DNA from: an uncultured Chthonomonas sp. | GTDB taxonomy: Bacteria; Armatimonadota; Chthonomonadetes; Chthonomonadales; Chthonomonadaceae | Length of the DNA: 64,000 bases | Direction of reading: 5' to 3' | NCBI GenBank assembly: GCA_903859705.1 | Contig: CAIONQ010000076.1 | Coordinates: 1 to 64,000 of the forward strand | Translations under genes and position numbers: made by a program | Part shown: positions 25,786-52,351 of the stretch, piece by piece | Position numbering within the stretch: the first letter of the stretch is position 1 | Layout of the letters: every line of letters starts with the position of its first letter | Notes under the pieces: generated by a model | What the model saw: the letters and a program-made list of their open reading frames with translations, nothing else | Told to the model about the DNA's origin: nothing | Databases searched by the model: none

Positions 25786-27403
25786 GTGCGGTTCTCGCAG
25801 ATTTCAAGTAGTCTGCCTGCATGCATTCTGCGGCAATCCGGCCGGATGTCAGAACTATGGGTACACCTCCGCCAGGATGCGTGCCTGCCCCGGCAAAGTA
25901 AAGTCCATCTAGTTCTTCACTCTTCATGCGGGGGCGGAAGTAGCTGGATTGCATAAATAAGGGGGAGAGGCCGAAGGCACTTCCGAGATAGCATGAATAG
26001 CGGGTATCGAAATCAGCCGGCGTAAACTGCTGCTCCATAACAATTTTCTGGCGCAAACCGGGGAACCCGCACTGCTCCAGCCTATCCAACACCTTCTCGC
26101 GAATTACCGGGGCTTCTGTTTCCCAGTTAATTGCACTGCCAAGATGAGGGCATGGTACCAGCACGTACAGCACATCATGATCTGGCGGTGCCAGGGTTGG
26201 ATCTGTGCGTGTAGGCACGCATGTGTAAATAGCTGGGTCTGATGGAAACACACCTGTAGTGGTGATTTCTGTAAGCGTCTTCTTGTAGTCGGCACTGAGG
26301 AACACCTCGTGGTGACGTATGTTATCCGGCAACCGGGTAACCCCCAGATACAACAGGTATGCAGAGCACCCATACTCTCGCTGTGCAATTCTGGTGTCGG
26401 AATGGCGTTTGCGGGTGAAATCTGCAAGCAATCTGGAGTACGCGGATGGCGTATCAACATTCGCAAGTACATAGTCTGCTGTGATGTGTCGATCCAAATT
26501 CGATACGGGATCTTTGATGACAACACCAGACACGCGTTTATTGTTGGTTGTGATCTTAGTAACGGGTGTGGACGTATGAACTTCAACTCCAAGCTCACGA
26601 ACTAGTTTCTCGAGGCCGCGGGCAATGGATTGCATTCCGCCTTTAGGAAACCACACGCCAAATTCCATTTCGATGTATGGTAGAAGCGCATAGATAGATG
26701 GGCAACGCGTTGGGCTGATACCGAGATACAGCGTCTGAAAAGTCAATGCCTGTCGCAATCGCTCGTCTTTAACAAACCGTGCAACAAAGCTGTATACATC
26801 CGTAAGAGGCATGGCTTCAAGTAAGCCACCAATTGTTTGTGGCCGCAGCAACGATGAAAAGTGCACAAATGGCTTCTCGATGAAATTTGTGCGGGCGTTT
26901 ACGTACTGTTTACGCATTGCCTCAAATAGCCGTGGCAACTGTTCTGCATCTTCTGGTGCAAAGCGAGCCACATCCGCCATCATGGATTTTACGTTGCCGT
27001 GCATGTCCATTGATTCGCCATCGGCAAAATGAACCCTATAGGCGGGATCAAGGCGCGTTAGCTCAATGTAATCAGCAATGTTCCTGCCACATACTGCAAA
27101 CAGTTGTTCCACTACTTCAGGCATCATCAACAGCGTTGGCCCCATATCAATATGGAATCCATCTTGCTGTATGGCGCTCATTCTGCCCCCACAGCTTTCG
27201 TTTTGCTCATAAAGGGTAACGCGCCAGCCTTGCCGCACAAGGTGGATGGCTGCGGATAGCCCACCGAGCCCACCACCAATTACTATTGCGTGCTGGCTAG
27301 AGTACCGGGCTTCTTGCGTGGTTGGTGATGCGGGGACAGATTCGATGCCGGCAGAAGCCCGGCTACCTGCAGAAGGTGTTGAAACAGTAAAGTTACTTTT
27401 CAT
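25775..27403 (-). CDS. crtN: CrtN/CrtI-type carotenoid desaturase
   Basis: A 542-residue phytoene/diapophytoene desaturase-family flavoprotein. A 38-residue Ser/Ala-rich N-terminal extension precedes the dinucleotide fold (GGGLGG at 43-48). The C terminus carries LYFAGAGTHPGGGVPIVL, the family's FAD signature in the CrtI-like form, and SAFGLSPLFMQSSYFRP resembles bacterial desaturases. It should introduce the conjugated double bonds before the CrtP-type enzyme oxidises the ends. The C30 versus C40 substrate cannot be decided: no dehydrosqualene, squalene or phytoene synthase gene is in the window. It overlaps the photolyase stop by ATGA, so translation is coupled. Confidence 0.85.
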   Translation of the reverse strand: MKSNFTVSTPSAGSRASAGIESVPASPTTQEARYSSQHAIVIGGGLGGLSAAIHLVRQGWRVTLYEQNESCGGRMSAIQQDGFHIDMGPTLLMMPEVVEQLFAVCGRNIADYIELTRLDPAYRVHFADGESMDMHGNVKSMMADVARFAPEDAEQLPRLFEAMRKQYVNARTNFIEKPFVHFSSLLRPQTIGGLLEAMPLTDVYSFVARFVKDERLRQALTFQTLYLGISPTRCPSIYALLPYIEMEFGVWFPKGGMQSIARGLEKLVRELGVEVHTSTPVTKITTNNKRVSGVVIKDPVSNLDRHITADYVLANVDTPSAYSRLLADFTRKRHSDTRIAQREYGCSAYLLYLGVTRLPDNIRHHEVFLSADYKKTLTEITTTGVFPSDPAIYTCVPTRTDPTLAPPDHDVLYVLVPCPHLGSAINWETEAPVIREKVLDRLEQCGFPGLRQKIVMEQQFTPADFDTRYSCYLGSAFGLSPLFMQSSYFRPRMKSEELDGLYFAGAGTHPGGGVPIVLTSGRIAAECMQADYLKSARTAHAV

Positions 27404-28878
27404 AGGTTAAGCGTGCCCTCTAAATTACTACCGCCACTGCGGGAGCCTGTTATAACTGCAAGCGATTGCAATGCCCTCTGCCGGGCTTCGTTGTGATCAA
27501 CAATAGGATAAGGGTAGGTGGCTCCAAGTTGGATGCCACAGGCGGCAAGAACACTTTGCGGTGCCATCCACGGCTGGTGAATATACACTGCTGCCAAGCT
27601 TGAAATTTCGGGTATCCACTTTCGGATGTAACTGCCGTCCGGGTCAAACCTTTGCCCCTGTAGTACAGGGTTAAATATGCGGAAATACGGCGCTGCATCG
27701 GCTCCACAGCCAGCGGTCCATTGCCACCCTAATGTGTTGTTCGCGGGATCGGCGTCTACAAGAGTGTCCCAAAACCAACTGGCGCCTTCTTTCCAGTCAA
27801 TTAACAAGTGTTTCACCAGGAAGGAAGCAACCAACATTCTAACGCGATTGTGCATCCATCCCGTCGCCCAGAGCTCGCGCATGCCAGCATCCACCATTGG
27901 ATACCCTGTGTTGCCTGTTTGCCACGCGATCAATGATGCATCATCTGGCTGCCACGGAAACTTATCGTATTCTTGCCGAAGTGGAGACTTCAAGGTGTGT
28001 GGGAAATGCCAGAGCAAATGCGCCGCGAATTCGCGCCATGCAATCTGCCGTACATATGCGGTTTCTGCATCTGTGGTTATCGGTGGGCCACCACGCCGTT
28101 GATAGATGCCACGAATAATCTGAGCAGGGCTTATCTCGCCAAATGCAAGATGTGGAGAGAGGCGGGATACACCCTTTGCAGCAGGGAAGTCTCGTTGCTC
28201 CGGGTAGTAATCAATTGAGGACTCCAGAAAGCGGTTAAGAGAAGCGCGTGCTCCTGCTTCACCTGGTTGCCACTGTTTGTAAAACTCGGTATCCCAGCCA
28301 CTGTTTGAAAGCAAATTCAGATTACTGAGCGGTATGGAAACTGGCCATACAACGTTTACGGGAGGATTGATTTGGGCAGGCATGATAATGGGAGCAGGTG
28401 GTGGAAGCACTGTACGCTGCAGTGCCTTCCAGAAGGGGGTGAAAACTTGAAATGCCTTGCCTGCATTGTTCAGCGCATCTGACGGGTGCCATAGTAACCC
28501 GTTCAAGATAGCACGATAGGTTACGCCGCGTGCCGCGAGAGCCACCTCAACGTCCGCTTCATTCACTCGTGCTGCCGGCTCTACCCGTTCCGATGAGTAA
28601 ACCGAACTTGCACCACATTCAGTGCAGAGCTCTGTTAGGACATCTGCAGGGCTGCCCTGCCTGATAATCAAGCGGCTACCGCGCAGTTCAAGCTCGCGAG
28701 AAAGGCTGCTAAGGCTCTGGTGCAACCACCAGTCTGATGCGCCTGAGGGCAATTCCAGCCCCGATTCATCGCAATGAATATAAACCGGTATCACTCCATT
28801 ACTGGCCAGAATACAGGCGGCCAGAGCTGAATTGTCACTAATTCGGAGATCGCGCCTAAACCAGTAAATTGATGCCAT
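27400..28878 (-). CDS. phrB: Deoxyribodipyrimidine photolyase (CPD class I)
   Basis: A 492-residue DNA photolyase that uses blue light and FADH- to split cyclobutane pyrimidine dimers. The ATG at 28878 is preferred over a longer frame from 28944 because it follows GGGGGAAG and starts at the conserved SIYWFRRDLRISDN. The alpha/beta antenna domain spans about 1-130. The helical FAD domain spans about 200-475, with QIAWREFAAHLLWH, the WATGWMHNR-like helix and NNTLGWQWTAGCGADAAPYFRIFNP region intact (DADPANNTLGWQW). It is the first gene of the carotenoid operon and overlaps the next by ATGA. Light-damage repair and pigment production are therefore made from one transcript. Confidence 0.92.
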   Translation of the reverse strand: MASIYWFRRDLRISDNSALAACILASNGVIPVYIHCDESGLELPSGASDWWLHQSLSSLSRELELRGSRLIIRQGSPADVLTELCTECGASSVYSSERVEPAARVNEADVEVALAARGVTYRAILNGLLWHPSDALNNAGKAFQVFTPFWKALQRTVLPPPAPIIMPAQINPPVNVVWPVSIPLSNLNLLSNSGWDTEFYKQWQPGEAGARASLNRFLESSIDYYPEQRDFPAAKGVSRLSPHLAFGEISPAQIIRGIYQRRGGPPITTDAETAYVRQIAWREFAAHLLWHFPHTLKSPLRQEYDKFPWQPDDASLIAWQTGNTGYPMVDAGMRELWATGWMHNRVRMLVASFLVKHLLIDWKEGASWFWDTLVDADPANNTLGWQWTAGCGADAAPYFRIFNPVLQGQRFDPDGSYIRKWIPEISSLAAVYIHQPWMAPQSVLAACGIQLGATYPYPIVDHNEARQRALQSLAVITGSRSGGSNLEGTLNL

Positions 28879-28926
28879 GCTTCCCCCGTGCACATTTGGC
28901 CCAGAAACCATCATGTCTAATATACG

Positions 28927-28963
28927 TCTATTATTTATACGCAAAACATAGCCAATAATGCAA
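28927..28963 (-). promoter_or_regulatory. Candidate promoter of the photolyase-carotenoid operon
   Basis: On the minus strand TTGCAT (28958-28963) and TATAAA (28934-28939) are separated by 18 nt, placing the start of transcription about 48 nt before the photolyase ATG. The -35 match is poor and the surrounding DNA is AT-rich, so this is tentative. No light-sensor (CarH/MerR-type) operator is recognised. Confidence 0.35.
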
Positions 28964-37686: not shown

Positions 37687-38736
37687 TCAGGCATTGTGAC
37701 CATGGTCGTGATCGGCAGTATTGTAGTGAAGAGCGAGCAAATCAACCCCAAAATCCCCGTGGAAGTCTCTCCAAACGGTGTGAATGTGATTCGCATCATT
37801 CTGGGTGCAGTCATATTCTATCAAGAATGAAGTTCCCTGAATACGATAATAGTGTGGCTGGCCTTTCTCGATGCCACCCATCCACGCAAACTTCAGGTTC
37901 TCAATGCCAGATTTATTGATGGCATCAAGCCGTTGTCGGGCTATTTCTTCTATCTGAATGTTAGCGTACTCATGCAGCAACGTCATAAACATTCCCTGCT
38001 GCTCTGCGGTAAGCTCTTTAAAGGCAATACCATTGTCTTCCAGAATAGACGTTTTGCGTAGTGCTGCAGTAACTACATCCGCCGGAGCGGTGTCGCTTAC
38101 AATCGCTAATTTCTTCTGATCAGCACTGAGAGCTTTTACGAGCGCACGTCCCAGGTCTTCCTCAGCTGCCAAAACACGCGTGCCCTTTTGCGGGCCCTGG
38201 CGAACTTCAGCTGGATTGGTGCCCAGAAACTGAGGGCTGCTGGCAATAATTTTGCCCTTAATTGAGGTCCAGTTTAGCGAAACATGGTGTCCCTCATAGC
38301 GCCAACCCCAGGTGCCTTTGCTAGACGGATCGCCGAATACTGTGAAGTAATAGAGTTCGGGATCGCGGGTGGCGCTGCCATTTTCCATGGCTTTCAGCAC
38401 TAGCTCAAGCTGTCGGATGCCTTCTACTTTACGGTACCCCGATTTGCTAAGGCTCACTTGTAGCAGCTTATGTGCTGCTGCCTGCTGCTCTGGAGTCATA
38501 TTCTTATAGCGAAGGCCGTTACGCTCCTTGGGAATGTAATGCCAGTTAAACCGCTCTTCTGAGTTAAAGGGAAGTTTAGCCTTTGCAAGCCTCTCGGGAT
38601 CCAGCGTTGCCAGAAATGCCTGTACGGCACTTAGAATTACTGGTGCCTTCCTGGCACGGGCCGAAGCTCCCTGTTCGGTTATAGCTGCGGCGGCCACAGC
38701 CGCTCCGCCAATCAAGACCTCTCGTCGGTTAAGCAT
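37687..38736 (-). CDS. DUF3500 domain protein with Tat-like signal
   Basis: A 349-residue exported protein. The N terminus (LNRREVLIGGAAVAAAAI) is a Tat-type signal with the RRE core. The remaining sequence matches the DUF3500 family: FNWHYIPKERNGLRYKNMTPEQ near 62-85, a GTWGWRYEGHHVSLNWT block near 140-158, and YYRIQGTSFLIEYDCTQNDANHIHTVWRDF near 295-325. The conserved His, Tyr and Asp residues hint at metal binding or catalysis, but no activity is established. AAGGAG lies seven nt before the ATG. It ends in its own terminator and appears monocistronic. The His/Asp-rich tail (DHDHGHNA) could bind metal. Confidence 0.85.
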   Translation of the reverse strand: MLNRREVLIGGAAVAAAAITEQGASARARKAPVILSAVQAFLATLDPERLAKAKLPFNSEERFNWHYIPKERNGLRYKNMTPEQQAAAHKLLQVSLSKSGYRKVEGIRQLELVLKAMENGSATRDPELYYFTVFGDPSSKGTWGWRYEGHHVSLNWTSIKGKIIASSPQFLGTNPAEVRQGPQKGTRVLAAEEDLGRALVKALSADQKKLAIVSDTAPADVVTAALRKTSILEDNGIAFKELTAEQQGMFMTLLHEYANIQIEEIARQRLDAINKSGIENLKFAWMGGIEKGQPHYYRIQGTSFLIEYDCTQNDANHIHTVWRDFHGDFGVDLLALHYNTADHDHGHNA

Positions 38737-39448: not shown

Positions 39449-42400
39449 TCACTCTTCTACAGTAGGAGCTACGCCCTCGTTCGTCTTGCCCCTTGCTAGC
39501 ATCTGGCGTAGGCCCGTTACGGCATCATCCATATATGTATGCATTATAGGTATATCAAAGAGGCTCAACACAGTGCCCACGGCCAACCCACCCACAACAG
39601 CGGAGGCCAGAGGCTGATACGCATCGAGCCCAGTTTTGGGCGCGATCGCGATTGGAAGCATCGTTATCAGGGTAATGCCGGATGTCATCAGGATTGGTCG
39701 CAGGCGCTCCGGGCAAGCTGTCTTAATAGCCGTATCGCGCGGTATACCGCGGTCTCTGTACTTCATTATCATGTCTATTAACAGCACGGCGGTTGTGATA
39801 TCCATGCCAGTTAACACGATGATACCCAGGATGCTAACTGTGGAGAACGACTGATGAGAGAGCCACAGCGCAATAAACACTCCTGAGAGCTCAAGTGGAA
39901 GAGATGCTATCATTTGCAGAGGCTGCAGAAATCCACGGAACTGGATTACCAGCACCAGATACATCAGAGCAAGGGCCAGTGTTAGCCCAGATATCATTCG
40001 GCGGAAGGAGTCCATCATCTCCTTCATATCGCCCCGAATTTCCATTCCATAGCCAGTTGGGAAGTTTACAGGCTGTATCCCGAGGTTCTTGTTTCCACCA
40101 TATATGTTGGATGCAAGGTTCATAACCACATCCATGGAGGGCAGGCTATTGTTGCGATAGTAGCCGGTTAGCCCAATTACTCTACGAAGTCCATCATGTT
40201 CAATAACCGTTGGCGAAACCGCGCGTTCTACACGCGCCACGGCCTTTAGGGGTACCTGGCGGCCGCCGGAGCCGCTAAGTATCATATCGCCAATGTCTGA
40301 AATCGACCGGCGGTTTTTAGCTTCGTACCTAATCTGAATGGTGTTTTGGCGAAGATTCGGCAACCTAAAGTACTCTGCAGATAGGCCGCCGCTTAATGCG
40401 TAATATGCCTGTTCAGCAATGCTATCTGGCGTTAGCCCGGCGGCCTGTGCCTTCGCGTAGTCCGGCACAATTCTAAACTCTGGTACCTTGTTGCTCCACG
40501 TTAGTGCGGGCTGATACAACTCTGACATTTTCTGAGCGGCAGCCATGGCATCGGTACCTATTTTATCTAGCTGATCCAGCTCTGGGCCAGTTATGTTCAC
40601 ATGTACCGGAGCCGCAGCTGTAGCCATAACATCGCTGCCCATCTCCTTTATCTGCAGCCTACGGATGCCGGGAATTCTCTGTAGTGCCTCCTTTTGAATT
40701 CCATCAATTACCTGAAATATTGTGCGTTTTCTGGCATCTTTGTCGCTCAGCGTCAGCATCATGCTTGCGCCATTCACCTGCGGCATCTGGTATCCCGTGT
40801 AATACGGGCTGTAACTCTCGAACATGGTTTCTGCACCAAGCTCGATGCTTGCCTTTTCAACCTCAGGATACTTTCCAACAATCTTTTCAATCTGGCGAAC
40901 AGCATTTTCTGTTTCTGCAAACGAGGTGCCAGGCGCCATCTCAAGCACACCACTTGCCTGGCCAACATCCGCCAGTGGCATCATCTCGCTGCCGATAAAG
41001 TAGTAAAACGTAAACCCAAGTACAAGTGTTGTCAGTACCCTCACCATATTTGCAAAACGGTGCTTCAGCAGCCACTCTATAAGGCGCGCATATCCTGCTT
41101 CCATTCGGTTAAGTGTTTCCTGGAAGGGATCTAGTACCCAATATAGCACTCGCAAAAACCAGTGCTTTCGGTCAGCGTTTCTGTCTTCGGTGTGGCGCAG
41201 CAGCTTTGAGCATAGTAGGGCTGTGAGGGTGAACGAAACCATCATGGAAGCCAGCAAGCCGAAGATCAGTGGCCATACCAATTCACGGAACATTAACTCA
41301 GTGATTCCACCAGAAAATAGTAGAGGGGAGAGTGCCAGCACAATCATAAGTGTGGAAGCAATAACGGCAACTCTAACTTCAGCTATTCCGTCGATCGTAG
41401 CCTGTTTGGGAGATTTTCCCATTCTGAGGTGGCGTTCCACGGCATGGATGTCGATAATGGAATCGTCTACGAGGCGGCCGATGGAAAGCAGTAGGCCTAC
41501 AAGGGTACCGCTGTTGAACGTCATGCCAAAGGGAGCCATCAGCAAAATTGCGATCGCAAGGGAAGTCGGCAGCGTGATCATAGCAATCAGGGTTCCGCGC
41601 CACTCGCCAAGAAATAACAGTACCGCCAGGCCAGTAAGAAGTACCGCTACAGTTAGTTCTTCCCAAACATTGTGAAATAGTATTTCTACGAAGTGAGAGT
41701 TGTCATAAGAAGTATCGAAATGTATGCCAGGGTTATCCTGTTCCAGCTGCTTTAATACCGCACGAATTGCCGGCATAACACTCGCAGAACTGGCTCCAGG
41801 GTCCTGGATCACGGATACTTCAATGGATTCGTCAACGGAAACTGGTGTTCCGGGGCTATGCTTAAGGTAATGGTATCCGCTTCTACGCTCCCATACTCCA
41901 TCTTCAACACGCGCCACATCGCCCACGGTAACAATACGTGCCGGCGCGGCAAGCGATGTAGTATTCGTTGATGCCCCCGCTGTGGCACCGCCCGGCATTC
42001 CGGATCCCGATTGAGAACCCATTTCCTGAGATGCCGGTGCCGCTTGCGGCTTACTTCCGGGCTCATTTGCGGCTATAGTGTAGCGCTTTACATCTTCTGG
42101 CGTTGATGCGTGCGTATCCAGCCTCACAATCGCTTCCGATGCGCCGGATGTAATTGTGCCAGCGGCCCGAGCTGCGTTATGTCTATCTATTGCATCGCGC
42201 ACATTCAGGATCGATATGCCACGAGATGCCAGCGCTTCCCTGTCTACAGTAACGCGCATCTGGCGGCGATATCCACCGAACGGCACCACCGAATAAACGC
42301 TTGGCACCGATTTTAACCTGTTTACAACCGCATTGTCCGCAAATTCGCGCACTCGGGCTTTGTTCCAACCAAGGGCGGCATCACCTTTTAGGCTAAGGGT

Positions 42401-42883
42401 AACTACCGGCAGGTTCAAGGGGTCAATCAACACCACCCAGCTTGGCTTCATGTTGGCCCCAGTTTGGGGCAGGCTGGATTGCGTTACATTCATCAGGGCT
42501 TGAACATCTACAAGCGACTTCTGCATGTTGGTGCCGTACGGAAACTCCAGCGTAACTATCGAGAAGCCATTCTGGGATGTAGAGCGTACATATTTCACAC
42601 CCTTTACATGTACCATCTGCTGCTCTATTGGCCCGCTAACATACTGTTCCATCTCCCGAGCGCTGTAGCCAGGCATCATGGTAACAACGCCAAGCATTGG
42701 GCTCTCAACATAGGGCGCAAAACGGCGCGGCATGGTGCGTGTTACGGTAATGCCACTCAAAAACAGCATGGCAACATAAAATGCAACAATCGCGTAGGGG
42801 TGTTCTATGCTCCAGCGGTGGATCATATGCAGGGCGTTCTGGTGCTCTGGCTCCTGAGCGGGTATCTGATTCTCCGTGCTCAT
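39449..42883 (-). CDS. RND-family efflux transporter (AcrB/HAE-like inner-membrane pump)
   Basis: A 1144-residue resistance-nodulation-division permease with the usual 12 membrane helices and two large periplasmic loops. An N-terminal Gln/Glu-rich stretch precedes TM1 (YAIVAFYVAMLFLSGITV). The proton-relay Asp pair of TM4 is present in GRLVDDSIIDI, as in AcrB-like pumps. The TM10 segment reads TGMDITTAVLLIDM, without the lysine found there in AcrB. A Gly/Ser/Ala-rich insert near 278-310 enlarges the first periplasmic loop. It overlaps the adaptor gene by ATGA. Substrate class is unclear: pump motifs look HAE-like, while the adaptor looks metal-related. Confidence 0.9.
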   Translation of the reverse strand: MSTENQIPAQEPEHQNALHMIHRWSIEHPYAIVAFYVAMLFLSGITVTRTMPRRFAPYVESPMLGVVTMMPGYSAREMEQYVSGPIEQQMVHVKGVKYVRSTSQNGFSIVTLEFPYGTNMQKSLVDVQALMNVTQSSLPQTGANMKPSWVVLIDPLNLPVVTLSLKGDAALGWNKARVREFADNAVVNRLKSVPSVYSVVPFGGYRRQMRVTVDREALASRGISILNVRDAIDRHNAARAAGTITSGASEAIVRLDTHASTPEDVKRYTIAANEPGSKPQAAPASQEMGSQSGSGMPGGATAGASTNTTSLAAPARIVTVGDVARVEDGVWERRSGYHYLKHSPGTPVSVDESIEVSVIQDPGASSASVMPAIRAVLKQLEQDNPGIHFDTSYDNSHFVEILFHNVWEELTVAVLLTGLAVLLFLGEWRGTLIAMITLPTSLAIAILLMAPFGMTFNSGTLVGLLLSIGRLVDDSIIDIHAVERHLRMGKSPKQATIDGIAEVRVAVIASTLMIVLALSPLLFSGGITELMFRELVWPLIFGLLASMMVSFTLTALLCSKLLRHTEDRNADRKHWFLRVLYWVLDPFQETLNRMEAGYARLIEWLLKHRFANMVRVLTTLVLGFTFYYFIGSEMMPLADVGQASGVLEMAPGTSFAETENAVRQIEKIVGKYPEVEKASIELGAETMFESYSPYYTGYQMPQVNGASMMLTLSDKDARKRTIFQVIDGIQKEALQRIPGIRRLQIKEMGSDVMATAAAPVHVNITGPELDQLDKIGTDAMAAAQKMSELYQPALTWSNKVPEFRIVPDYAKAQAAGLTPDSIAEQAYYALSGGLSAEYFRLPNLRQNTIQIRYEAKNRRSISDIGDMILSGSGGRQVPLKAVARVERAVSPTVIEHDGLRRVIGLTGYYRNNSLPSMDVVMNLASNIYGGNKNLGIQPVNFPTGYGMEIRGDMKEMMDSFRRMISGLTLALALMYLVLVIQFRGFLQPLQMIASLPLELSGVFIALWLSHQSFSTVSILGIIVLTGMDITTAVLLIDMIMKYRDRGIPRDTAIKTACPERLRPILMTSGITLITMLPIAIAPKTGLDAYQPLASAVVGGLAVGTVLSLFDIPIMHTYMDDAVTGLRQMLARGKTNEGVAPTVEE

Positions 42884-45018
42884 CGCGCTGCCTGCCTTTC
42901 CTGCACACGTTCACCCTCGTGCAGATAGTCTTCGCCGCTCACAATCACACGGTCACCTGAATGCAGGCCACCTTTTATGGCGGTGAGCTCTCCGTTTGTT
43001 TCTCCCGTTGTAACCTCTACCTGGTGTGCTGTTACATTGTCTGGAGAGCCAGAAAGTATCCACACAGTGGCCACTCTTATGTCCGTTCTGCTGTCTGAAG
43101 ACGGAGAAGTGCGGGTTTGGATGGCTCTGGATGGTACCCACACACCTGGGCGAGCATCGGTCAGGGAAATGGATACCTTAACGGATTCTCCCGGACGGAT
43201 TTTGCGATCGGGGTTAGGAATAATCACTTCCACTGCCCCCGTACGGGATACCGGATCTACCTGACCACCGGCCGAACTGATACGTGTGTTTATCGTTTCC
43301 CCAGAACCAAACTGAATTTTTACAGGAGTTCCGGTATGAATTAACCGCAAGTCTTGCTCGGCAGGATATGCCTTTATACGTAGACTGCTGACATCGGATA
43401 TCTGAAGTATTGGTTGGCCCGCACCAACTGTTGTGCCCGGGCTGGCAATGCGCCTGGTAACGACACCTGCTGTGAGCGCGCGTATCTCGCTGAATGCTTG
43501 CTGATGCGTTGCCTGCATCAGCATGGCTTTTGCCTGCTCTTCGCCGGCACGGGCCTGGAGTATTTTCTGCTTTGCAGAATCTGCTATGGCTTGTGAAGAT
43601 ACTACATGTGCAAAGTGAGAATCCAGTTCGCTCTGTGCTTCTTTTAGACGTGCTTTCGCAGCTTCTACCGATGCATCAGATTTCTTAACGTTCGCCTCGG
43701 CGGAGCGTATCTGTGCTGCCACCTGCATCGTGCGAGACTCTGCCTGTTTTTGCCGAGCATCGGCAGCGCGAGCCTGCGATTCTTCGCGTTGCAACTCCTC
43801 CTGTGTAATTGCGCCTCGTGCATATAGTGAGCGTTCTCGTGCTATTTCTGAGCGCCAGTACATGTTATCTGCCCGAGCTGCTTCCAGGCCAGCGTCTGCA
43901 TCCTGACGCATAGTTTTTGCAGCTGCCAGGTCTGCTACTGCAGCATTCCGCTCTTCAGCTGCAGAGGTTCTTCCGGCCTGTGCGCCCTCCACAGCCCCCT
44001 GTTTCATGCCAACTTCTGCGTGTGCCTCTTTTATCGAGGCCATGGTTTGTTCATACTCGCGTGTGGCAACGTTTACGCCCTGGGTTGCCATCCTAACGCC
44101 TGCTGCCTGCGCATCTGTTTGAGGAGCGCTTACTGATGTATCCAGCTTTACGAGTAACTCGCCAGGCGTAACTTTATCGCCGACATACGGGATTATGGAG
44201 AGAATTGCACCCTGCACCCTTGCCGATATATCCTGTTCATTGAGCCCTTCCACAGTGCCGGTAAGTGTAATTCCAGAGGCCTGAATGCTCTCTCGCACTT
44301 CAACAGACTCTACGGGTGCCGTTCCTTCAGGTGCAGGCATTTCCATCTGCATGCCCTGAGCCTCGAGCGGGGTCATGGCACCCTGGCGCCTGAAGTGGGT
44401 TACCGCGTAATTTGCTGCTCCAATTGCTGCTACAAGCAGTACAATACTTATGACCGCTGAAAACAGCTTACGCTTATCCATGCGTTTTGCGGATCGCACA
44501 GCAAGTACTAGAACAACTAATCCTACAATAACCGCTCCAATAAACCATATCCTGGTTCCGCTTACAGTTGCAGGTTGGGCGCTAAGTTGATCGGTTTTAT
44601 CCTCCGTCATGCCTCCCACGGTTTCGCCTGTTGCAATTGGTAGCTCAAGGGAAACTGGCTTTACCGCTGACGATGCCACCGTCACCTTTGTGGAGTAGGT
44701 ACCTTCCATAGCAAAAGCGGCGGGCACGCTGTAAATACCGGTATGGCCTGGCATTTCGCTTGCGTTATTCTCGTGCTCCCCCATGTTCATGCCGGGCATG
44801 CGCGTAAAGGCGGTAACGTGCGCTCCAATGAGAGGTTTGCCCTGGCTGGTGGTTACATAAAGGTATAGAGTGGCTTTCCCTATTCCTATTACTTCCGGGT
44901 TGGCCCGTATCACCACATTCACCCCACCAGCGGTTGCGGATGGAGAGGCCATTGCAATCCCTACGAGGCCAGCACCAGAGAGCAAAAAAACTCCCAGAAA
45001 ATAAATAAACTTTCTCAT
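42880..45018 (-). CDS. Membrane fusion protein with N-terminal FixH/YtkA-like Met-rich domain
   Basis: A 712-residue periplasmic adaptor, much longer than the usual 350-450. After a signal or anchor (KFIYFLGVFLLSGAGLVGIAM), residues about 30-135 form a FixH/YtkA-type beta domain (VVIRANPEVIGIGKATLYLYV) containing MPGMNMGEHENNASEMPGH, a Met/His-rich site suited to copper or silver. Two membrane helices follow at about 160-178 and 188-210. The HlyD-type part starts near 240 (ITLTGTVEGLNEQDISARVQG), has a long coiled-coil hairpin (about 310-520), then barrel and membrane-proximal domains (PGTTVGAGQPILQISDVSSL). Coupled by ATGA to both the TolC-like and RND genes. The fusion suggests substrate loading at the adaptor. 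Confidence 0.85.
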   Translation of the reverse strand: MRKFIYFLGVFLLSGAGLVGIAMASPSATAGGVNVVIRANPEVIGIGKATLYLYVTTSQGKPLIGAHVTAFTRMPGMNMGEHENNASEMPGHTGIYSVPAAFAMEGTYSTKVTVASSAVKPVSLELPIATGETVGGMTEDKTDQLSAQPATVSGTRIWFIGAVIVGLVVLVLAVRSAKRMDKRKLFSAVISIVLLVAAIGAANYAVTHFRRQGAMTPLEAQGMQMEMPAPEGTAPVESVEVRESIQASGITLTGTVEGLNEQDISARVQGAILSIIPYVGDKVTPGELLVKLDTSVSAPQTDAQAAGVRMATQGVNVATREYEQTMASIKEAHAEVGMKQGAVEGAQAGRTSAAEERNAAVADLAAAKTMRQDADAGLEAARADNMYWRSEIARERSLYARGAITQEELQREESQARAADARQKQAESRTMQVAAQIRSAEANVKKSDASVEAAKARLKEAQSELDSHFAHVVSSQAIADSAKQKILQARAGEEQAKAMLMQATHQQAFSEIRALTAGVVTRRIASPGTTVGAGQPILQISDVSSLRIKAYPAEQDLRLIHTGTPVKIQFGSGETINTRISSAGGQVDPVSRTGAVEVIIPNPDRKIRPGESVKVSISLTDARPGVWVPSRAIQTRTSPSSDSRTDIRVATVWILSGSPDNVTAHQVEVTTGETNGELTAIKGGLHSGDRVIVSGEDYLHEGERVQERQAAR

Positions 45019-46391
45019 CGGGATATTCCCTCCATGCCTGGCTCATCGCCGCATGCCCTACGAATACCTGCAAGCGCGAGGCGCAGCTCATAGGTGCTTC
45101 GTGCTTCCAGCGATGTTGCAGCCGCAACGGCGGCGTTTGCATCCAGCATCTCAACAATAATTGCTTTACCGCTTTGTAGCCGAAGGGCCGTAATATCACG
45201 CGCCGCGTGGGCCGCAATGCTCTGCCTGTGTGCAGCCTGTAAATTTTTTAATGCGGTATCCGCATCAAGCCATGCCTGCCTAACTTGTGTCTCTATGCTC
45301 AGTCGGGTGCGTCGCTCTTCCTCTGCCGCCTTAATTGCCATAGCCTTTGCAGCATCGGTTGCGGCACGCCGCATGCCAGAATCAAAAACTGGCAGGCTCA
45401 CCATAATCCCTATGGTATATCCGGCACGCCTCTGCATTTGCGTTGCGGTAAAAACGTCTGCCATCGCCGTGCCATAAATCTGCGGAGCTCTGTCGGCTTG
45501 CACAGCTTTCGTCTGCTCCTCGGCCGCTTTTCTGCGTGCTTCGGAGGCCATTGCATCGGGGCGGCGGCTTAGCGCTCCCTGTACAAGCCGAGTTACTTCC
45601 GGTAATGCTCCAGGCGATATCGTGCTATCTACGATGGTAAGAGGGCTATCTGCTGATACCCCGGCAGTGAGGCGAACATCCAGCAATGCTCTGGCTTCTG
45701 CGTTTATGGATCCTGTTAGCATTCGCCGGGCGTCCTCCAGCTCTGCTTCCGCTCGTAGTACAGAAGCCCGTAAGCCTTTGCCACTCTCAAGCAAAGCCTC
45801 AGCAGTGTTCAACATCTCCTGATCCACTAATATGCGTGAGCGCGCGGTATCTGATTCAGCTCGTGCCATCAATGAGCGATAGCACGCTTCCTGTACTCGC
45901 AACCCTACATCTAGCCTCACCTCATCAACATCAAAAGCTGCAGCTTCAGCACGCTTCTGTGCTGATCTCTGTAGGGCTTCAAGTCTGCCGCCAGTAAACA
46001 GGGGAGTCATGATAGTTAAGTTCTGGTCTGCGAAACCACCGCCTGGAACAAGGCTGGAGGCAGCAGATGGAACCATACTGGAAGCAGAAAGGATGGCAGT
46101 GCTATCACCATCAGAAAGATAGGAGCTTGCTGTTACCTGAAATCGGCGCACAGATGCGGTTGCACGTGTCTCAGCCCGTGCTGATATTGCCATTTGCTCA
46201 GCGGATTTTATCTCCGGGCTGTTTTTTAGCGCCATCTGCACAACAGATTTGATTGAGACGGCCTGCTGCTTGCTGGCGTTGTCATCGGGGCTGCACATGC
46301 CGGTAACTGGACCAGCGAGGCAGAGTATCGCGATAGCCAACCCCGGCTTGCGCCCTAATTGGCACGTAATATGGGCGAGCACTGTATTCAT
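45015..46391 (-). CDS. TolC-family outer-membrane efflux channel
   Basis: A 458-residue outer-membrane factor. The ATG at 46391 has AGGAA ten nt upstream and opens a signal peptide (GLAIAILCLAGPVTGMCS, with Cys possibly lipidated in a weak lipobox). The frame extends 50 codons further upstream, but that part has Pro/Cys-rich, non-signal sequence. Two TolC repeats of long alpha-helical hairpins are seen: SIKSVVQMALKNSPEIKSAEQ, EALQRSAQKRAEAAAFDVDEVRLDV and then IYGTAMADVF, GYTIGIMVSLPVFD, SIETQVRQAWLDADTALKNL. It supplies the outer-membrane duct for the adaptor and pump encoded directly downstream, with a 4-nt overlap. Confidence 0.88.
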   Translation of the reverse strand: MNTVLAHITCQLGRKPGLAIAILCLAGPVTGMCSPDDNASKQQAVSIKSVVQMALKNSPEIKSAEQMAISARAETRATASVRRFQVTASSYLSDGDSTAILSASSMVPSAASSLVPGGGFADQNLTIMTPLFTGGRLEALQRSAQKRAEAAAFDVDEVRLDVGLRVQEACYRSLMARAESDTARSRILVDQEMLNTAEALLESGKGLRASVLRAEAELEDARRMLTGSINAEARALLDVRLTAGVSADSPLTIVDSTISPGALPEVTRLVQGALSRRPDAMASEARRKAAEEQTKAVQADRAPQIYGTAMADVFTATQMQRRAGYTIGIMVSLPVFDSGMRRAATDAAKAMAIKAAEEERRTRLSIETQVRQAWLDADTALKNLQAAHRQSIAAHAARDITALRLQSGKAIIVEMLDANAAVAAATSLEARSTYELRLALAGIRRACGDEPGMEGISR

Positions 46392-46571
46392 ATTCGCGGT
46401 TCCTGCTAACGCGCGATTAAGGCGCGGAGGCAGTTTCAGTTTGGAATCCTGAAACGGGCTAAAACAGAGTAGTTGGAAGATGCGGCAACACCATGGTTCC
46501 GGTAAATGCGGTGGTGGTGCCCGTGGCGCAATCTGTAGCACACAAGGCGTGTGGCAGAAAGGCAGCGTGCG

Positions 46572-47033
46572 TTAGAAGAGGGTGGGTGGAGATCGGCCAA
46601 ACAGAGAACCAGGGTCAAATCCTGGCGGAGATTGATGTGGACTAAGATGTATCAGGCGGATAGAGTGGGTTTCGGCACTAAAGTTTGTGCTGATGAGTGG
46701 TGCAGTAAGCTCACACATTGGCCCACCTGCCGTAGTACCACGGTATGTGGATGCCTGCATTCCACAAATACCAGCTGCCTGCAATATGCTAACTTTACAT
46801 CTGGCACTAAGCCGTGTACCCTGCGCACTCTTCACGGATACACATCGAGAGCATGCTGGTTTTTGCACAGCTACATTTGCTGTAGTGGCTGTGGCACGCA
46901 ACATCGGGCAACCTGGCGGGCATATACTCCCATCCGAGCATGCAGCCCGGGCAGTCAGCGGTAAGCTTGAAGCCAACAGGGCGAGGACCAATACCCACAC
47001 TGATATGTAGTTTTTCAGTATTCGAGTATTCAT
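46572..47033 (-). CDS. Small Cys-rich secreted protein leading the RND operon
   Basis: A 153-residue predicted periplasmic or surface protein. The ATG at 47033 opens a clean signal peptide (NYISVWVLVLALLASSLPLTARA, cleavage before AC). A longer frame upstream has no signal. The mature N-terminal 80 residues contain ten or so cysteines in pairs (CSDGSICPPGCPM, CSRCVS, CKVSIL, CGMQ, CELT), suitable for metal binding or disulfides. The remaining tail is Ser/Pro-rich (IHLSPHQSPPGFDPGSLFG). It precedes the TolC-like gene by 180 nt on the same strand, so it probably belongs to the efflux operon. No family is recognised. Absence of a strong ribosome site lowers certainty. Confidence 0.6.
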   Translation of the reverse strand: MNTRILKNYISVWVLVLALLASSLPLTARAACSDGSICPPGCPMLRATATTANVAVQKPACSRCVSVKSAQGTRLSARCKVSILQAAGICGMQASTYRGTTAGGPMCELTAPLISTNFSAETHSIRLIHLSPHQSPPGFDPGSLFGRSPPTLF

Positions 47034-47957: not shown

Positions 47958-49193
47958 CTACTCTCGGCGCAGGGCCTCTATTGGGTGTAAGCTGGCTGCC
48001 TTGCCCGCTGGCCAGTAACCAAAGAAGATGCCTATGCCAGCCGAAACTGCTACTGCCAGCACAGCACTGCCTACAGACGGTATGATGGGCCAGCCAGATA
48101 CCTTGCCAGCAATGAAGCTTACGCTGCCGCCAAGTGCAACTCCCACCATGCCACCCATAATGGATAAGAGCGCAGATTCGATAAGGAACTGAGTTCGAAT
48201 ATTGGTTTCGGTGGCACCCAGCGCCTTACGAATACCAATCTCTCGAGTTCGCTCTGTAACCGAAACCAGCATGATGTTCATGATTCCCACACCGCCAACG
48301 GTAAGGGATATTGCGGCTATACCGCCCAGCAGCAAAGTAAGCACGCCGCCAATGGTCTTAATGATGCTCAGTAACTGGGCTTGATTGAGAACGTTGAAGT
48401 CATCATTATCCGGGAACGGAGGAGATAACTGATGCCTGTGGCGCAACAGTGATACAATCTGCTCCTGTGCTAGATCAATTTTATCAACCGAGCGGCACTG
48501 CACGCTGATCATGGTTAAATTTCGCTGGTTTAGCACACGGTTCATGGCCGTTGCAAGCGGCATCATCACCACATCGTCTTGATCCTGGCCAAAGGTGTTT
48601 GCACCCTTCTTTGCCAGTATTCCAACCACCAGAAACTGGACCCGGTTTATTGAAATCTCTTGTCCCAGGCAATTGAAATCCGGTGTGCCGAAGAGGTTCT
48701 GGATTACTGTACGGCCAACACATATCACTCTCGAGCGCGCGTCGTTATCAGAAAGGTTTAAGGCACGCCCTCGGTCCATGGAGTAGTTATTCACAGACAT
48801 AATGGCCGGCAAGCATCCCGTTAGCTGGGTTCTCCAGGTTTTGGATGCGGACTTTACCACTACAGATGATCGAACCTGAGGCGAGACCTCCAGAACGGAT
48901 CCCGAGCAGCGTTCTTTTATCGCCACTGCGTCGCCAGGCTTGAGAGTTTGCACACCAGGGCCAAGGCCGGGTTGGCCCGGGTTTACGCGCGGGCTACCTG
49001 GGATAATGGTAAGCAGGTTGTTTCCAAGCTGACCAATGGAGTTGGTAACGTTTGTGGAGGCGCCCTGACCAACTGAGACAGCAGTTACAACAGCCGAAAC
49101 TCCGATAACCACGCCAAGCATGGTTAGGGCTGATCGCATTTTGTTGTCTCTAAGTGCCCTCAGGGCAAACCTGAATGTATCTATAGGTGTCAT
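47958..49193 (-). CDS. MacB-type ABC transporter permease (FtsX fold)
   Basis: A 411-residue permease. The ATG at 49193 starts the conserved MTPIDTFRFALRALRDNKMRS. An in-frame extension upstream runs into the ATPase gene and is rejected. TM1 lies at about 22-45 (LGVVIGVSAVVTAVSVG), a MacB-type periplasmic domain at about 50-275 (NLLTIIPGSP, VSPQVRSSVVV), then three helices in the last 130 residues (GGVLTLLLGGIAAISLTVGG, IMGGMVGVALGGSVSFIAG, VLAVAVSAGIGIFFGYWPA). The TERTREIGIRKALGA motif is typical of FtsX-fold exporters. It lies 11 nt after the ATPase and forms a mechanotransmission exporter with it and the HlyD-type adaptor. Confidence 0.9.
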   Translation of the reverse strand: MTPIDTFRFALRALRDNKMRSALTMLGVVIGVSAVVTAVSVGQGASTNVTNSIGQLGNNLLTIIPGSPRVNPGQPGLGPGVQTLKPGDAVAIKERCSGSVLEVSPQVRSSVVVKSASKTWRTQLTGCLPAIMSVNNYSMDRGRALNLSDNDARSRVICVGRTVIQNLFGTPDFNCLGQEISINRVQFLVVGILAKKGANTFGQDQDDVVMMPLATAMNRVLNQRNLTMISVQCRSVDKIDLAQEQIVSLLRHRHQLSPPFPDNDDFNVLNQAQLLSIIKTIGGVLTLLLGGIAAISLTVGGVGIMNIMLVSVTERTREIGIRKALGATETNIRTQFLIESALLSIMGGMVGVALGGSVSFIAGKVSGWPIIPSVGSAVLAVAVSAGIGIFFGYWPAGKAASLHPIEALRRE

Positions 49194-49204
49194 TTCAGAT
49201 GCCC

Positions 49205-49972
49205 TTACAGGTCCAGAACCCCGGTACTCATCGCGTTTGAAGGCTGTGCAAGCCACTCTTCTGCAAGTACCCGGCGCTTAATCAGCTGATCTGCGAGTAT
49301 CTTTCCGTCCTGCACCTGAACCAGCCGTGTGCCGTGCTGCGCGATATGCGGTTCATGTGTAACCAGGATGGCCGTCATGCCCTGAGAGTTGAGTGTCTGA
49401 AATATCGACATGATCTCTTCTCCCTGGCGGGTAGCAACATTGCCAGTGGGTTCATCTGCCATCAGCACACTTGGCTCGGTTGCAATAGCCCGCGCAATTG
49501 CCACGCGTTGCTGCTGCCCGCCAGATAGCTCGGTTGGTTTATGATGCATTCGGTTAGATAGGCCCACACGCTCCAGAGCCGCCTGGGCCTTTTCTCGCCG
49601 TTTCTTCACGCTGCCGTATATCATTGGCAACTCCACATTTTCAACAGCTGTGAAGCTTGGCAGCAGGTTGTAGCTCTGGAACACAAACCCAATTTCTCGG
49701 TTGCGTACGCGTGCCAACTCTTTGTCTTCCAGCCCGCCAACGTTTGCTCCATTCAGCATGTAAGTTCCCTTTGTAGGGGCATCCAACAGGCCGAGTATGT
49801 GCATAAGGGTAGATTTGCCAGAACCCGAAGGCCCCATGATAGCTACAAATTCTCCCTTATGTACCTTGAGGCTAACGCCATCCAGGGCCCGCACTTCCTG
49901 ATCGCCAATGGAGTAGATCTTGTAAACCTCATCCAGCTCAATCAGGGGACTGACTGTGGCCGGGAGCGTCAT
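49205..49972 (-). CDS. MacB/LolD-type ABC transporter ATP-binding protein
   Basis: A 255-residue ATPase. Walker [10 protein letters not shown] (47-55), Q-loop Gln99, signature LSGGQQ (149-154), Walker B with DEPTG (173-177) and switch His206 are all present. The D-loop reads NVATR where many relatives have NLDSR, so its aspartate is Ala180. This variant is tolerated in some homologues but may alter inter-domain coupling. A 30-residue C-terminal extension ([20 protein letters not shown]) exceeds the usual length. The gene overlaps the adaptor stop by ATGA. With the FtsX-fold permease, a peptide, macrolide or lipid export role is likely, with substrate unknown. Confidence 0.92.
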
Positions 49973-51678
49973 CTTCCGCCTCCCTGCGAATCTGGTGCTT
50001 TTACACCGAGCTTGGGTAAGCCGGCAACCACAACGGTGTCGCCTTCAACGAGGCCATCAGTCACCTCCACTTTGGTGCCATCATCAAATCCAGTCTTCAC
50101 GGGCCGTACTTCCACCCGTTCGCTCTCCGGCTTGTTAGCATGCAGCAGGTAAACCACATTGCGTGTAACTTCTCGGTGAACGCTTTCAGAGGGTACTAAC
50201 AGAACGTTGCTCTTCTCACCAAGAATAACGGAAACATCTGCCGTCATATCCGGGCGTAGCAGGCCCTCTTCGTTGGATACAGCAATCGTTGTTTCATAGG
50301 TAACAACGTTATCTTTAGTGGTTGATGAAGCTGCAATTTTGGTGACATTACCCTTGAACACTTTGCCAGCAAATGCTTCAACGCGCACTTCGCACGGCTG
50401 GCCGAGTTTCACTTTGCCGATATCGGTTTCATCCACATAGGCCCGCACTTCAAGCCGAGAAAGGTCTGCCACAGTTATCAGCGTTGGGGCAGAGAAGCCA
50501 GCTGCCACTGTTTCACCCTGCTGTGCGGTAATGGAGAGAACTGTGCCGCTTATGGGGGAGCGGATGATGGTTTTGTCTGCCTGATCAAGCTGATATTTCA
50601 GCTGTGCACGCGCTTGCAGCAACACTGCTTCTGATTGAAGCAGAGCGCTGCGCGACTCGGCAATTGCCATCTTCTTAATCAAATCCTGCCGGGCACCCGT
50701 GCGTTGTAAATTGAGTGCTGCACGCATTTGCCGAACGGTTTCATTAGCGTTTTTGAGATCAGCAAGCTGAACCTGATCCTGAAACTTGCCAGCCCGTGCT
50801 GCCTCAACCGTGGCCTGAGCCTGACTAACCTGATCGTGTGCTGCCTGTAGATCTGCGCGAGTTTTTTCTTTTGCAATGTCGAGGGCCGCCTGAGCACTCT
50901 TGTTTCTGGCGGTTAGTTGCTGATACGTAGCGTCAGATTGATCCACAATGTCGCCGGCAATATAACCCTTTGCCAGCAATTGTCTCTGCCGATCCAGCGT
51001 CTTTTTAGCCTGAATAACGGCCGCATGTGCATCGTCCAGGCTGCTCTGCGCCTGAAGTATCTGTTGAGCCACCGTTTGCTTTGTCTGCAGTTCCGCAGAT
51101 CTTGCAGAAGAAAGGGCTGCTTCCGCCTTCTTAATCTCTGAAACGGTTTGAATCGGCTGCAGCTTTGCAGATGCCTGGGCGCTTTCAACGCGCGCCTGAG
51201 CCGCACTTAGTGCTGCCTCGGCATCGGCAATCTGCGCGGCTGTTTGTTCAGCTGTAAAACCTGCCAGTTGCTGTGCCTGCTCAAACCGGGATTTTGCCTG
51301 TGCTACGGCCGCTTCGGAAGAAGCTACGCTGTGGCGGCTCTGGTCTACCTGTGCCTGCAAATCCGGCAAGTCCAGCACAGCCACAACCTGGTTCGCCTTA
51401 ACGCGGGTTCCAACATCTGCGGGCAGTTCGCGAATGCGCCCTGTAATCTGGGAGCCGATCTTAACCTGGGTTCCGATCTGCGAGGCAACTATGCCCGTGG
51501 CAGCTATCTTACGCTGCTGAGTTCCGCGCTCTGCCTTCGCCACTTCCACTCCGGTAGGCAACGGGCCACCCGGTGCGGTAGAGGCCGATCGGCGTTGTAC
51601 CATAACAACCCCAAGCAGTATTACAACGCCGGCCCAGGGTATCCATCCTAAGCGTTTTTTCTTACCTGCAGCAGTCAT
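49969..51678 (-). CDS. MacA-type periplasmic adaptor (HlyD family)
   Basis: A 569-residue membrane fusion protein. An N-terminal anchor helix (LGWIPWAGVVILLGVVMV) is followed by a lipoyl-type domain (VKIGSQITGRIRELPADVG), a very long Ala/Gln-rich coiled-coil hairpin (about 100-345, roughly twice that of MacA), the second lipoyl half (SPISGTVLSITAQQGETVAAG) and barrel plus membrane-proximal domains (VRAYVDETDIGKVKLGQPC). The extra coiled coil may bridge a wide periplasm or mark a different outer-membrane partner. No TolC gene is in this operon, so it may share the channel of the RND system. GGGAG precedes the ATG. It lies 55 nt after the TetR gene. Confidence 0.9.
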   Translation of the reverse strand: MTAAGKKKRLGWIPWAGVVILLGVVMVQRRSASTAPGGPLPTGVEVAKAERGTQQRKIAATGIVASQIGTQVKIGSQITGRIRELPADVGTRVKANQVVAVLDLPDLQAQVDQSRHSVASSEAAVAQAKSRFEQAQQLAGFTAEQTAAQIADAEAALSAAQARVESAQASAKLQPIQTVSEIKKAEAALSSARSAELQTKQTVAQQILQAQSSLDDAHAAVIQAKKTLDRQRQLLAKGYIAGDIVDQSDATYQQLTARNKSAQAALDIAKEKTRADLQAAHDQVSQAQATVEAARAGKFQDQVQLADLKNANETVRQMRAALNLQRTGARQDLIKKMAIAESRSALLQSEAVLLQARAQLKYQLDQADKTIIRSPISGTVLSITAQQGETVAAGFSAPTLITVADLSRLEVRAYVDETDIGKVKLGQPCEVRVEAFAGKVFKGNVTKIAASSTTKDNVVTYETTIAVSNEEGLLRPDMTADVSVILGEKSNVLLVPSESVHREVTRNVVYLLHANKPESERVEVRPVKTGFDDGTKVEVTDGLVEGDTVVVAGLPKLGVKAPDSQGGGR

Positions 51679-51733
51679 ATCTCACTCCCAAATCCAGCAG
51701 GGGACCCGCCGCCTGTGTGGATTGCGTTGTTAT

Positions 51734-52351
51734 TCATCGGTTTGTCGTTGCGTCTTCAGGCCCGAAACCAAGCCAGAGAGCGTCCACAGCACCACATGCC
51801 GTTGTCTGTATTTCCGCCCTGGTGGGCTTGGTTCCGAAATTGTATGTTACAAAGGCATGGTGCGCTATGCCGCCAAGCAAAAGTGCTGCCATTGCTGCAG
51901 CGTCTCCAGTTCGCATTGCACCCACCGCCTGCTGTCGGCGTATAAATGCCTCAACAACAGCGCGGTCCCGCGCATGTGGAGGCTCCTTCATCCCATCGAA
52001 TGGGTGCGCATGAACAGATCCAACCCTGCTGCCAATTGCTGTTATCATCCTGGGAAACATCTCCAGAAAGTAGGTCAGCATCTCAATGGCAGCGCTTCGC
52101 AGCGTTGCAAGTGCGTCCGCGCCGTCACCCTCTTCCTTAAGCAGCCTGTGCCACTCTGGGAGCTCCGGAATTTCCAGGGCAGCAAAAAAAAGTGCTTCCT
52201 TGGTACTGTAGCGTTTGAAGATACTCCCTTCGGATACGCCGGCCAGTTGGGCAATGCGCGATGTAGGCGCAGTAAACCCATCTTCCAGAAATACTTTTCG
52301 CGCAGCTCGCAGGATCTGTTCGTCCGTTATTGTAACATGCCGGGCCATCAT
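51734..52351 (-). CDS. TetR-family transcriptional regulator
   Basis: A 205-residue regulator. The N-terminal TetR helix-turn-helix spans about 10-56 (DEQILRAARKVFLEDGF, SRIAQLAGVSEGSIFKRYSTKEALFFAAL). The C-terminal helical domain (about 60-200) would hold the ligand pocket and dimer interface (TYFLEMFPRMITAIG, AAMAALLLGGIAHHAFVTYN). It is first in an operon with a MacA-like adaptor and ABC exporter, so it probably represses that exporter until the exported compound, or a mimic, binds. GAGGATC lies upstream. Two consecutive ATG codons leave a one-residue uncertainty. No clear palindromic operator was found in the 175 nt upstream. Confidence 0.9.
   Translation of the reverse strand: MMARHVTITDEQILRAARKVFLEDGFTAPTSRIAQLAGVSEGSIFKRYSTKEALFFAALEIPELPEWHRLLKEEGDGADALATLRSAAIEMLTYFLEMFPRMITAIGSRVGSVHAHPFDGMKEPPHARDRAVVEAFIRRQQAVGAMRTGDAAAMAALLLGGIAHHAFVTYNFGTKPTRAEIQTTACGAVDALWLGFGPEDATTNR

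Follow-up and report, generated by a model that had tools for sequence, protein, structure and literature searches.

The 64,000-nucleotide stretch analyzed here (positions 1 to 64,000 of contig CAIONQ010000076.1, assembly GCA_903859705.1, from an uncultured Chthonomonas sp.; hereafter the window) carries an operon for a resistance-nodulation-division (RND) efflux pump whose periplasmic adaptor begins with an additional domain. We propose that this operon probably encodes a tripartite pump for periplasmic soft metals, most likely Cu(I)/Ag(I), with a chaperone of the CrdA/CusF type built into the adaptor. The support for this proposal comes from domain layout, homology, conservation and gene order. 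All genes of the operon lie on the minus strand, in the order leader open reading frame (ORF), outer membrane channel of the OEP family, adaptor and permease. The OEP gene (45015..46391, Pfam PF02321) encodes a TolC-like channel, and its listed ORF reaches a GTG at 46541. The adaptor ORF (42880..45018) shares 4 bases with the OEP ORF and another 4 with the permease ORF.

The adaptor ORF starts with ATG and encodes 712 residues. A first-pass annotation, made from the sequence alone, had described an extra N-terminal beta domain and two helices ahead of an HlyD-type body, and the ORF, Pfam and an AlphaFold model agreed on this layout. Pfam placed YtkA (PF13115) on residues 29-112 with 30.5 bits against a cut-off of 25.9, HlyD_D23 on residues 437-610 (68.4 against 30) and HlyD_3 on residues 512-610, also above its cut-off. 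The NCBIfam model for RND adaptors, TIGR01730, scored 168.8 (cut-off 94.9), and the model for CzcB/NccB metal adaptors, TIGR00999, scored 103.7, below its curated cut-off of 319.3. Of the original label "FixH/YtkA-like," the YtkA half was retained; FixH (PF05751) was absent from the Pfam matches of the adaptor. In the AlphaFold model, which was built on 15 aligned sequences, the beta domain covers residues ∼25-130, with block pLDDT values of 85-95 from residue 31, and long helices follow at residues 154-177 and 182-209. From these data, we infer a signal peptide, an external YtkA domain (44629..44946), a membrane hairpin formed by the two helices (44392..44559) and an external HlyD-type adaptor body, which the Pfam and NCBIfam matches let us place at residues 236-712 (42883..44313).

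The extra domain most closely resembles CrdA of Helicobacter pylori. The two best PDB matches found by Foldseek were apo CrdA (6.5e-7) and silver-bound CrdA (4.7e-6). With VIA, silver-bound CrdA and the extra domain gave a Z of 13.4 and a root mean square deviation of 1.9 over 101 residues at 24% identity, and the following rows, at Z ∼9 to 10.5, were mostly periplasmic proteins of the FetP/HftA/Tp34/FtrA/P19 kind but also included a DUF4426 protein and an S-layer protein. A search with a single sequence returned no match, whereas a six-row profile picked up CrdA at 3.8e-8, and no other match came below 0.1. Residues 74-92 of the adaptor read MPGMNMGEHENNASEMPGH and contain the motif MPGMNMGE (residues 74-81, 44776..44799). 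In an alignment of 15 adaptors, M74, P75, M77, M79, G80, E81 and a fourth Met, M104 (44707-44709), were invariant, which gives a conserved core of M-P-x-M-x-M-G-E plus M104. The first-pass annotation had described a Met/His-rich site; its Met part is common to all 15 sequences, but H82 and H92 are private to the window sequence. CrdA binds copper, acts together with CrdB, CzcB and CzcA, and has a motif, MMxEMPGMxxMxEM, in which Met69, Met72, Met75, Met78 and Met99 form its proposed Cu(I) site (PMC9182242). Since the Met residues are invariant in 15 of 15 adaptors and the Cu(I) site of CrdA is Met based, the Met residues pointed out in the first-pass annotation can be taken as the family's own signature. 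Thus, the domain shares with CrdA the fold, a profile-level sequence relationship and an MPxM motif plus a later Met, as well as partnership with an OEP, an adaptor and an RND permease. In contrast to CrdA, which is a separate small periplasmic protein, it forms the N terminus of the adaptor and is followed by a membrane hairpin.

A second Met motif, absent from the first-pass annotation and more widely conserved than the Met cluster of the YtkA domain, lies directly after the second helix. In an alignment of 21 adaptors, this juxtamembrane motif (MTPLEAQGMQM, residues 215-225, 44344..44376) showed M223 and M225 in all sequences and M215 in at least 90%, and 20 of the 21 had [EDQ]AQ followed by M-x-M, with L045 diverging. 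The conserved MxxxEAQxMxM stands where the Met segment of Escherichia coli CusB stands, just ahead of the adaptor body, a correspondence of position only. The 61 N-terminal residues of CusB are enough to bind metal and to accept it from CusF (PMC4446572). The tripartite layout is likewise common to both systems; however, no separate CusF-like gene was noted in the window operon, and its permease is AcrB-like. Covalent joining of a metallochaperone to an RND adaptor has a clear precedent in SilB of Cupriavidus metallidurans, whose additional domain is C terminal and has the CusF fold, whereas the domain described here is N terminal, has the YtkA/CrdA fold and is accompanied by two transmembrane helices (PMC4446572). 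The principle of an adaptor-fused chaperone is therefore already known, and its present form is new as far as our literature searches reach: no YtkA-bearing or FixH-bearing RND adaptor was found in a search made at title level, with most subscription literature outside its range.

A full-length single-sequence scan of genome contigs found no relative, but a later alignment-based scan did. The first-pass annotation had called for a domain search for other such fusions. When a profile spanning YtkA, the hairpin and the linker was compared with 291 genomes of the phylum, 43 gave an end-to-end match (counted from listed rows as one starting no later than profile position 49 and ending no earlier than 214), so the YtkA-adaptor fusion is not a chance event. 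A motif-seeded scan of 84,980 species, with a strict pattern that misses variants such as EAQVM, gave 37 confirmed loci. Titles assigned 33 of them to Armatimonadota in the wide sense (Chthonomonadales, Fimbriimonadales, Abditibacteriales and others); the other four (L074, L078, L079 and L080) carried no phylum label, and L078 and L080 adjoin labeled rows on a permease tree. Two loci, L086 and L098, share one contig. Outside the phylum, YtkA-adaptor fusions were covered only by this strict scan and by a plasmid search, which hit 305 records without reaching 80% coverage of the adaptor in any of them; all 30 plasmid matches listed begin at query residue 182 or later.

The metal-binding module of the adaptor varies among the 37 loci. 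By sequence pattern, 14 carry YtkA (two of these also a heavy-metal-binding domain, HMBD), 19 carry HMBD without YtkA, and four are unclassifiable. Pfam analysis of ten adaptors agreed with these patterns, with HMBD in five of five HMBD-type and YtkA in five of five YtkA-type adaptors, and added a C-terminal Cupredoxin_1 in four of the five YtkA-type adaptors. In a tree of 25 permease rows, two changes account for the YtkA label, and none of 500 shuffles needed as few. Furthermore, the HMBD adaptor of L095 is nested in a YtkA clade with the window and L062 (support 100/99). The replacement of one metal module by another suggests that YtkA and HMBD may play equivalent roles on these adaptors. 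In one genome (G106, C1:2776071-2776316), a stand-alone YtkA protein is encoded directly before a YtkA-fused adaptor, which begins at 2776386.

Upstream of the OEP gene lies the leader ORF (46572..47033), which encodes 153 residues from the chosen ATG, with a hydrophobic N-terminal stretch, a Cys-rich middle and the ending GRSPPTLF, and which had no Pfam match up to an E value of 10. The gap between its stop and the likely OEP start (ATG 46391, chosen by sequence reading) is 46392..46571. In each of 50 loci, we searched the region that extends from 3500 bases ahead of the adaptor to 400 bases beyond it for same-strand ORFs with R[AGS]PP in the last 12 residues. Five loci were left unscored because no stop-bearing adaptor ORF matched (L032, L040, L049, L094 and L097), and leader-like ORFs are visible in the first three of these. 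Among the 45 scored loci, 34 had such a leader, ending in RAPP (29), RSPP (4) or RGPP (1). All 34 have a close Cys pair; 32 contain at least 4 Cys, 19 contain CxxC, and 30 show a strongly hydrophobic stretch close to the chosen start. ORFs combining R[AGS]PP with at least 4 Cys numbered 34 of 643 upstream versus 6 of 5057 elsewhere (Fisher p 5e-27, a value that is overstated because the loci are related). The upstream hits numbered 36 in all; L030 and L088 each contributed one that looked spurious, and these two were dropped from the tally of 34 but counted in the enrichment analysis.

These leaders resemble CutF and CruR in being small, export-like at the N terminus and Cys-rich, with a Cys pair and a Pro-rich C-terminal end carrying PP, and in lying upstream of a copper-type operon. 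Copper bound to the CxxC of CruR releases the arrest at RAPP, whereas in CutF copper is thought to prolong arrest (PMC9426467, PMC9973294); a 2024 paper noted that arrest by CruR and CutF themselves was not yet demonstrated (PMC10987492). Most of the CutF-like genes known to precede OEP and RND copper genes come from Pseudomonadota and Bacteroidota (PMC9973294), and RSPP, the ending of the window leader, is partly arrest-permissive in published mutants (PMC12992588). The window-type leaders differ from CutF and CruR in their Cys layout, and DUF2946 membership was rejected, since none of the 10 leaders scanned with Pfam matched this family up to an E value of 10. The leader looks like a ribosome-stalling metal sensor, for which either direction of regulation would be possible. 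The main texts of the leader-ORF literature searched do not name Armatimonadota, and a separate literature search at title level brought up no arrest peptide of this phylum; its match concerned ribosome quality control in Bacillus. Two further ORFs belong to this context. At the usual leader place of L043 (9442-9912, minus strand) stands a Cys-rich, His-tailed protein, read as two YHS/TRASH-type metal-binding repeats. In L098 (16330-16758, plus strand), a second Cys-rich ORF ending SRAPPTN lies away from the pump leader and may head another metal operon.

Together, the fold and profile matches to CrdA, the Met cluster, the HMBD and cupredoxin domains of related adaptors and the copper-sensor-like leader support the earlier suggestion that the adaptor carries a putative built-in soft-metal-binding domain. 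That the pump serves another soft or heavy metal (Hg, Zn, Ni or Co) seems very improbable. Met/Cys sites and HMBD are not exclusive to copper, which counts in favor of such a metal, but all-Met sites favor Cu(I)/Ag(I), and the closest folds include several periplasmic proteins that bind copper. Some CutF-like proteins are found upstream of Ni/Co genes (PMC9973294); however, these Ni/Co-linked leaders are His-only, whereas the window-type leaders are Cys-rich.

The permease gene (39449..42883) encodes 1144 residues, and Pfam, NCBIfam, alignment, model and Foldseek characterize the product as AcrB-like and Met-rich. A matching same-strand permease ORF follows the adaptor in 34 of the 37 related loci, and in the other three (L094, L096 and L097) the adaptor runs to the contig end. 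The permease model has a pLDDT of 76.2, with low-confidence loops at 686-699 and 751-757, and the sequence is 21.4% identical to CusA and 21.9% to AcrB. Several results concerning this protein weigh against a soft-metal pump, as do others from the leader and from the YtkA family. All 50 Foldseek matches listed for the permease model were AcrB, AcrD or other HAE pumps. The CusA/CzcA model TIGR00914 scored 298.8, below its curated cut-off of 701.45, and the permease lacks the Met residues of CusA (M573, M623 and M672) and its E939/K984 positions; conserved Met residues lie 1 to 3 columns off the three CusA Met columns, in a region where the alignment is uncertain. On these grounds (score, missing residues and fold), we rejected the idea that the permease is a disguised CusA. 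Met makes up 4.35% of the periplasmic positions in the permease family; the corresponding values are 1.54% for 14 RND paralogs from the genome of the window, 3.61% for AcrB and 2.56% for CusA. The AcrB value is such that Met content alone is no proof of a metal pump. Upstream, RNA folding of 46376-46600 was no better than that of shuffles (z -1.28; 22 of 200 shuffles fold as well), and the gap between leader and OEP therefore offers no support for a stem-loop that would mask the start of the OEP gene in the manner of cutO. An R[AGS]PP leader was missing from 11 of the 45 scored loci, the stretch upstream being too short in three of them (L031, L078 and L079); L068 has an ORF that resembles a leader but ends LSPPDL, L043 has the Cys-rich ORF read as YHS type, and none was recognized in L024, L026, L027, L037, L045 and L083. 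Finally, in Bacillus, YtkA proteins function in supplying copper to cytochrome oxidase and not in efflux (PMC13344008).

The permease evidence bears on another explanation, namely, an HAE-type pump for organic substrates in which the adaptor domain and the leader serve only as metal sensors that control assembly or expression. The AcrB-like fold speaks for it, as does the paired Asp of transmembrane helix 4 (TM4), and the CrdAB-CzcBA system of H. pylori has been reported to export tetracycline and to respond to copper by induction (PMC12319023). The first-pass annotation had credited the permease with HAE-like proton-relay residues, which was borne out for both TM4 Asp residues (AcrB Asp407/408), Arg971 and Thr978 but not for AcrB K940, replaced by Thr in 22 of 22 permeases. 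Thus, the permease has the HAE1 fold but not the D407/D408 and K940 combination of HAE1 multidrug pumps. An extra Asp in TM4 was present in 21 of the 22 permeases, and His480 in all of them. Among 248 invariant columns, 15 Met were invariant in 25 of 25 permeases, 14 of which are non-Met in CusA or AcrB in the same alignment. The Thr in place of K940, the invariant Met of the permease and the Met sites on the YtkA domain and on the linker argue against an organic-substrate pump, which we consider unlikely.

The Bacillus proteins bear on a further explanation, in which the system handles copper for cuproenzyme assembly or acquisition rather than for detoxification and the YtkA domain is a CtaK-type CuA-assembly domain. 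In Bacillus subtilis, CtaK supports CuA assembly, as does the YtkA domain carried by YcnJ (PMC13344008), and CruR heads a copper-uptake operon (PMC9426467, PMC9973294). However, a domain carried on an RND adaptor that is encoded with an OEP and a permease represents an export architecture, and the nearest structure is that of a resistance protein, CrdA. We regard this explanation, too, as having very little probability.

Two other permeases are encoded in the genome of the window (L114 and L115, contigs C95 and C54 of G000). Both pass the CusA/CzcA cut-off but, in pairwise alignment, lack Met at the three cleft positions of CusA, an observation that we count in favor of the window operon as the soft-metal pump. 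A canonical Cus pump elsewhere in the genome was rejected on this basis, and L114 and L115 may still be metal pumps. The genome also encodes a Cu-type P-ATPase that scores above its cut-off.

In the mechanism that we propose for the soft-metal pump, the exported YtkA/CrdA-like domain would capture metal through the Met cluster M74, M77, M79 and M104, while the hairpin would keep this domain at the membrane. Metal would then move to the juxtamembrane MxxxEAQxMxM site, placed like the Met segment of CusB, enter the Met-rich AcrB-like permease and leave through the OEP. The leader probably tunes expression: as in the proposals for CutF and CruR, on which this step is modeled, metal bound to the Cys-rich nascent chain would alter stalling at the C-terminal R(A/G/S)PP.

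A broader proposal, which we put forward tentatively and with less confidence than the assignment of the window operon, is that a phylum-wide class of Cu(I)/Ag(I) exporters may have arisen on an AcrB-type rather than a CusA-type permease. Such exporters would combine a Met pathway of their own (15 invariant Met, with the extra TM4 Asp and the His), an adaptor-fused CrdA-type chaperone exchangeable with HMBD and a metal sensor of the nascent-chain type that is specific to the lineage and ends in R(A/G/S)PP. If this is correct, the permease represents a second solution to metal export on the RND scaffold, and the chaperone step, which in copper RND efflux usually requires two proteins to meet, is built in covalently, which would open metal hand-off to study within a single polypeptide. 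An adaptor family that naturally swaps YtkA/CrdA-like, HMBD and cupredoxin modules lends itself to direct comparison. The leaders would also extend nascent-chain metal sensing to Armatimonadota, a poorly studied phylum for which a salt-lake survey was the only item on copper RND efflux in a title-level search of the literature.

Several neighboring genes deserve mention. In several relatives, a protein of ∼175-190 residues with a similar N terminus (RFG-x-GT...ALI) is encoded beside the permease or within the operon (L025 6968-7513, L036 4498-5070, L039 3571-4122, L041 13370-13921 and L043 3670-4197). The other observations concern the minus strand of the window. Downstream of the pump (37687-38736) lies a gene whose DUF3500 product has a Tat-like signal and a C terminus rich in His (DHDHGHNA). 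Upstream of the pump operon (47958-52351), the ORFs read as an ABC exporter of the MacAB kind, an adaptor belonging to it and a TetR-like regulator. Farther away, 20728-28944 looks like a C30/C40 carotenoid cluster beside a photolyase gene, also as read from the ORFs, and this putative cluster contains two desaturase-like proteins, an aldehyde dehydrogenase, a glycosyltransferase and an acyltransferase.

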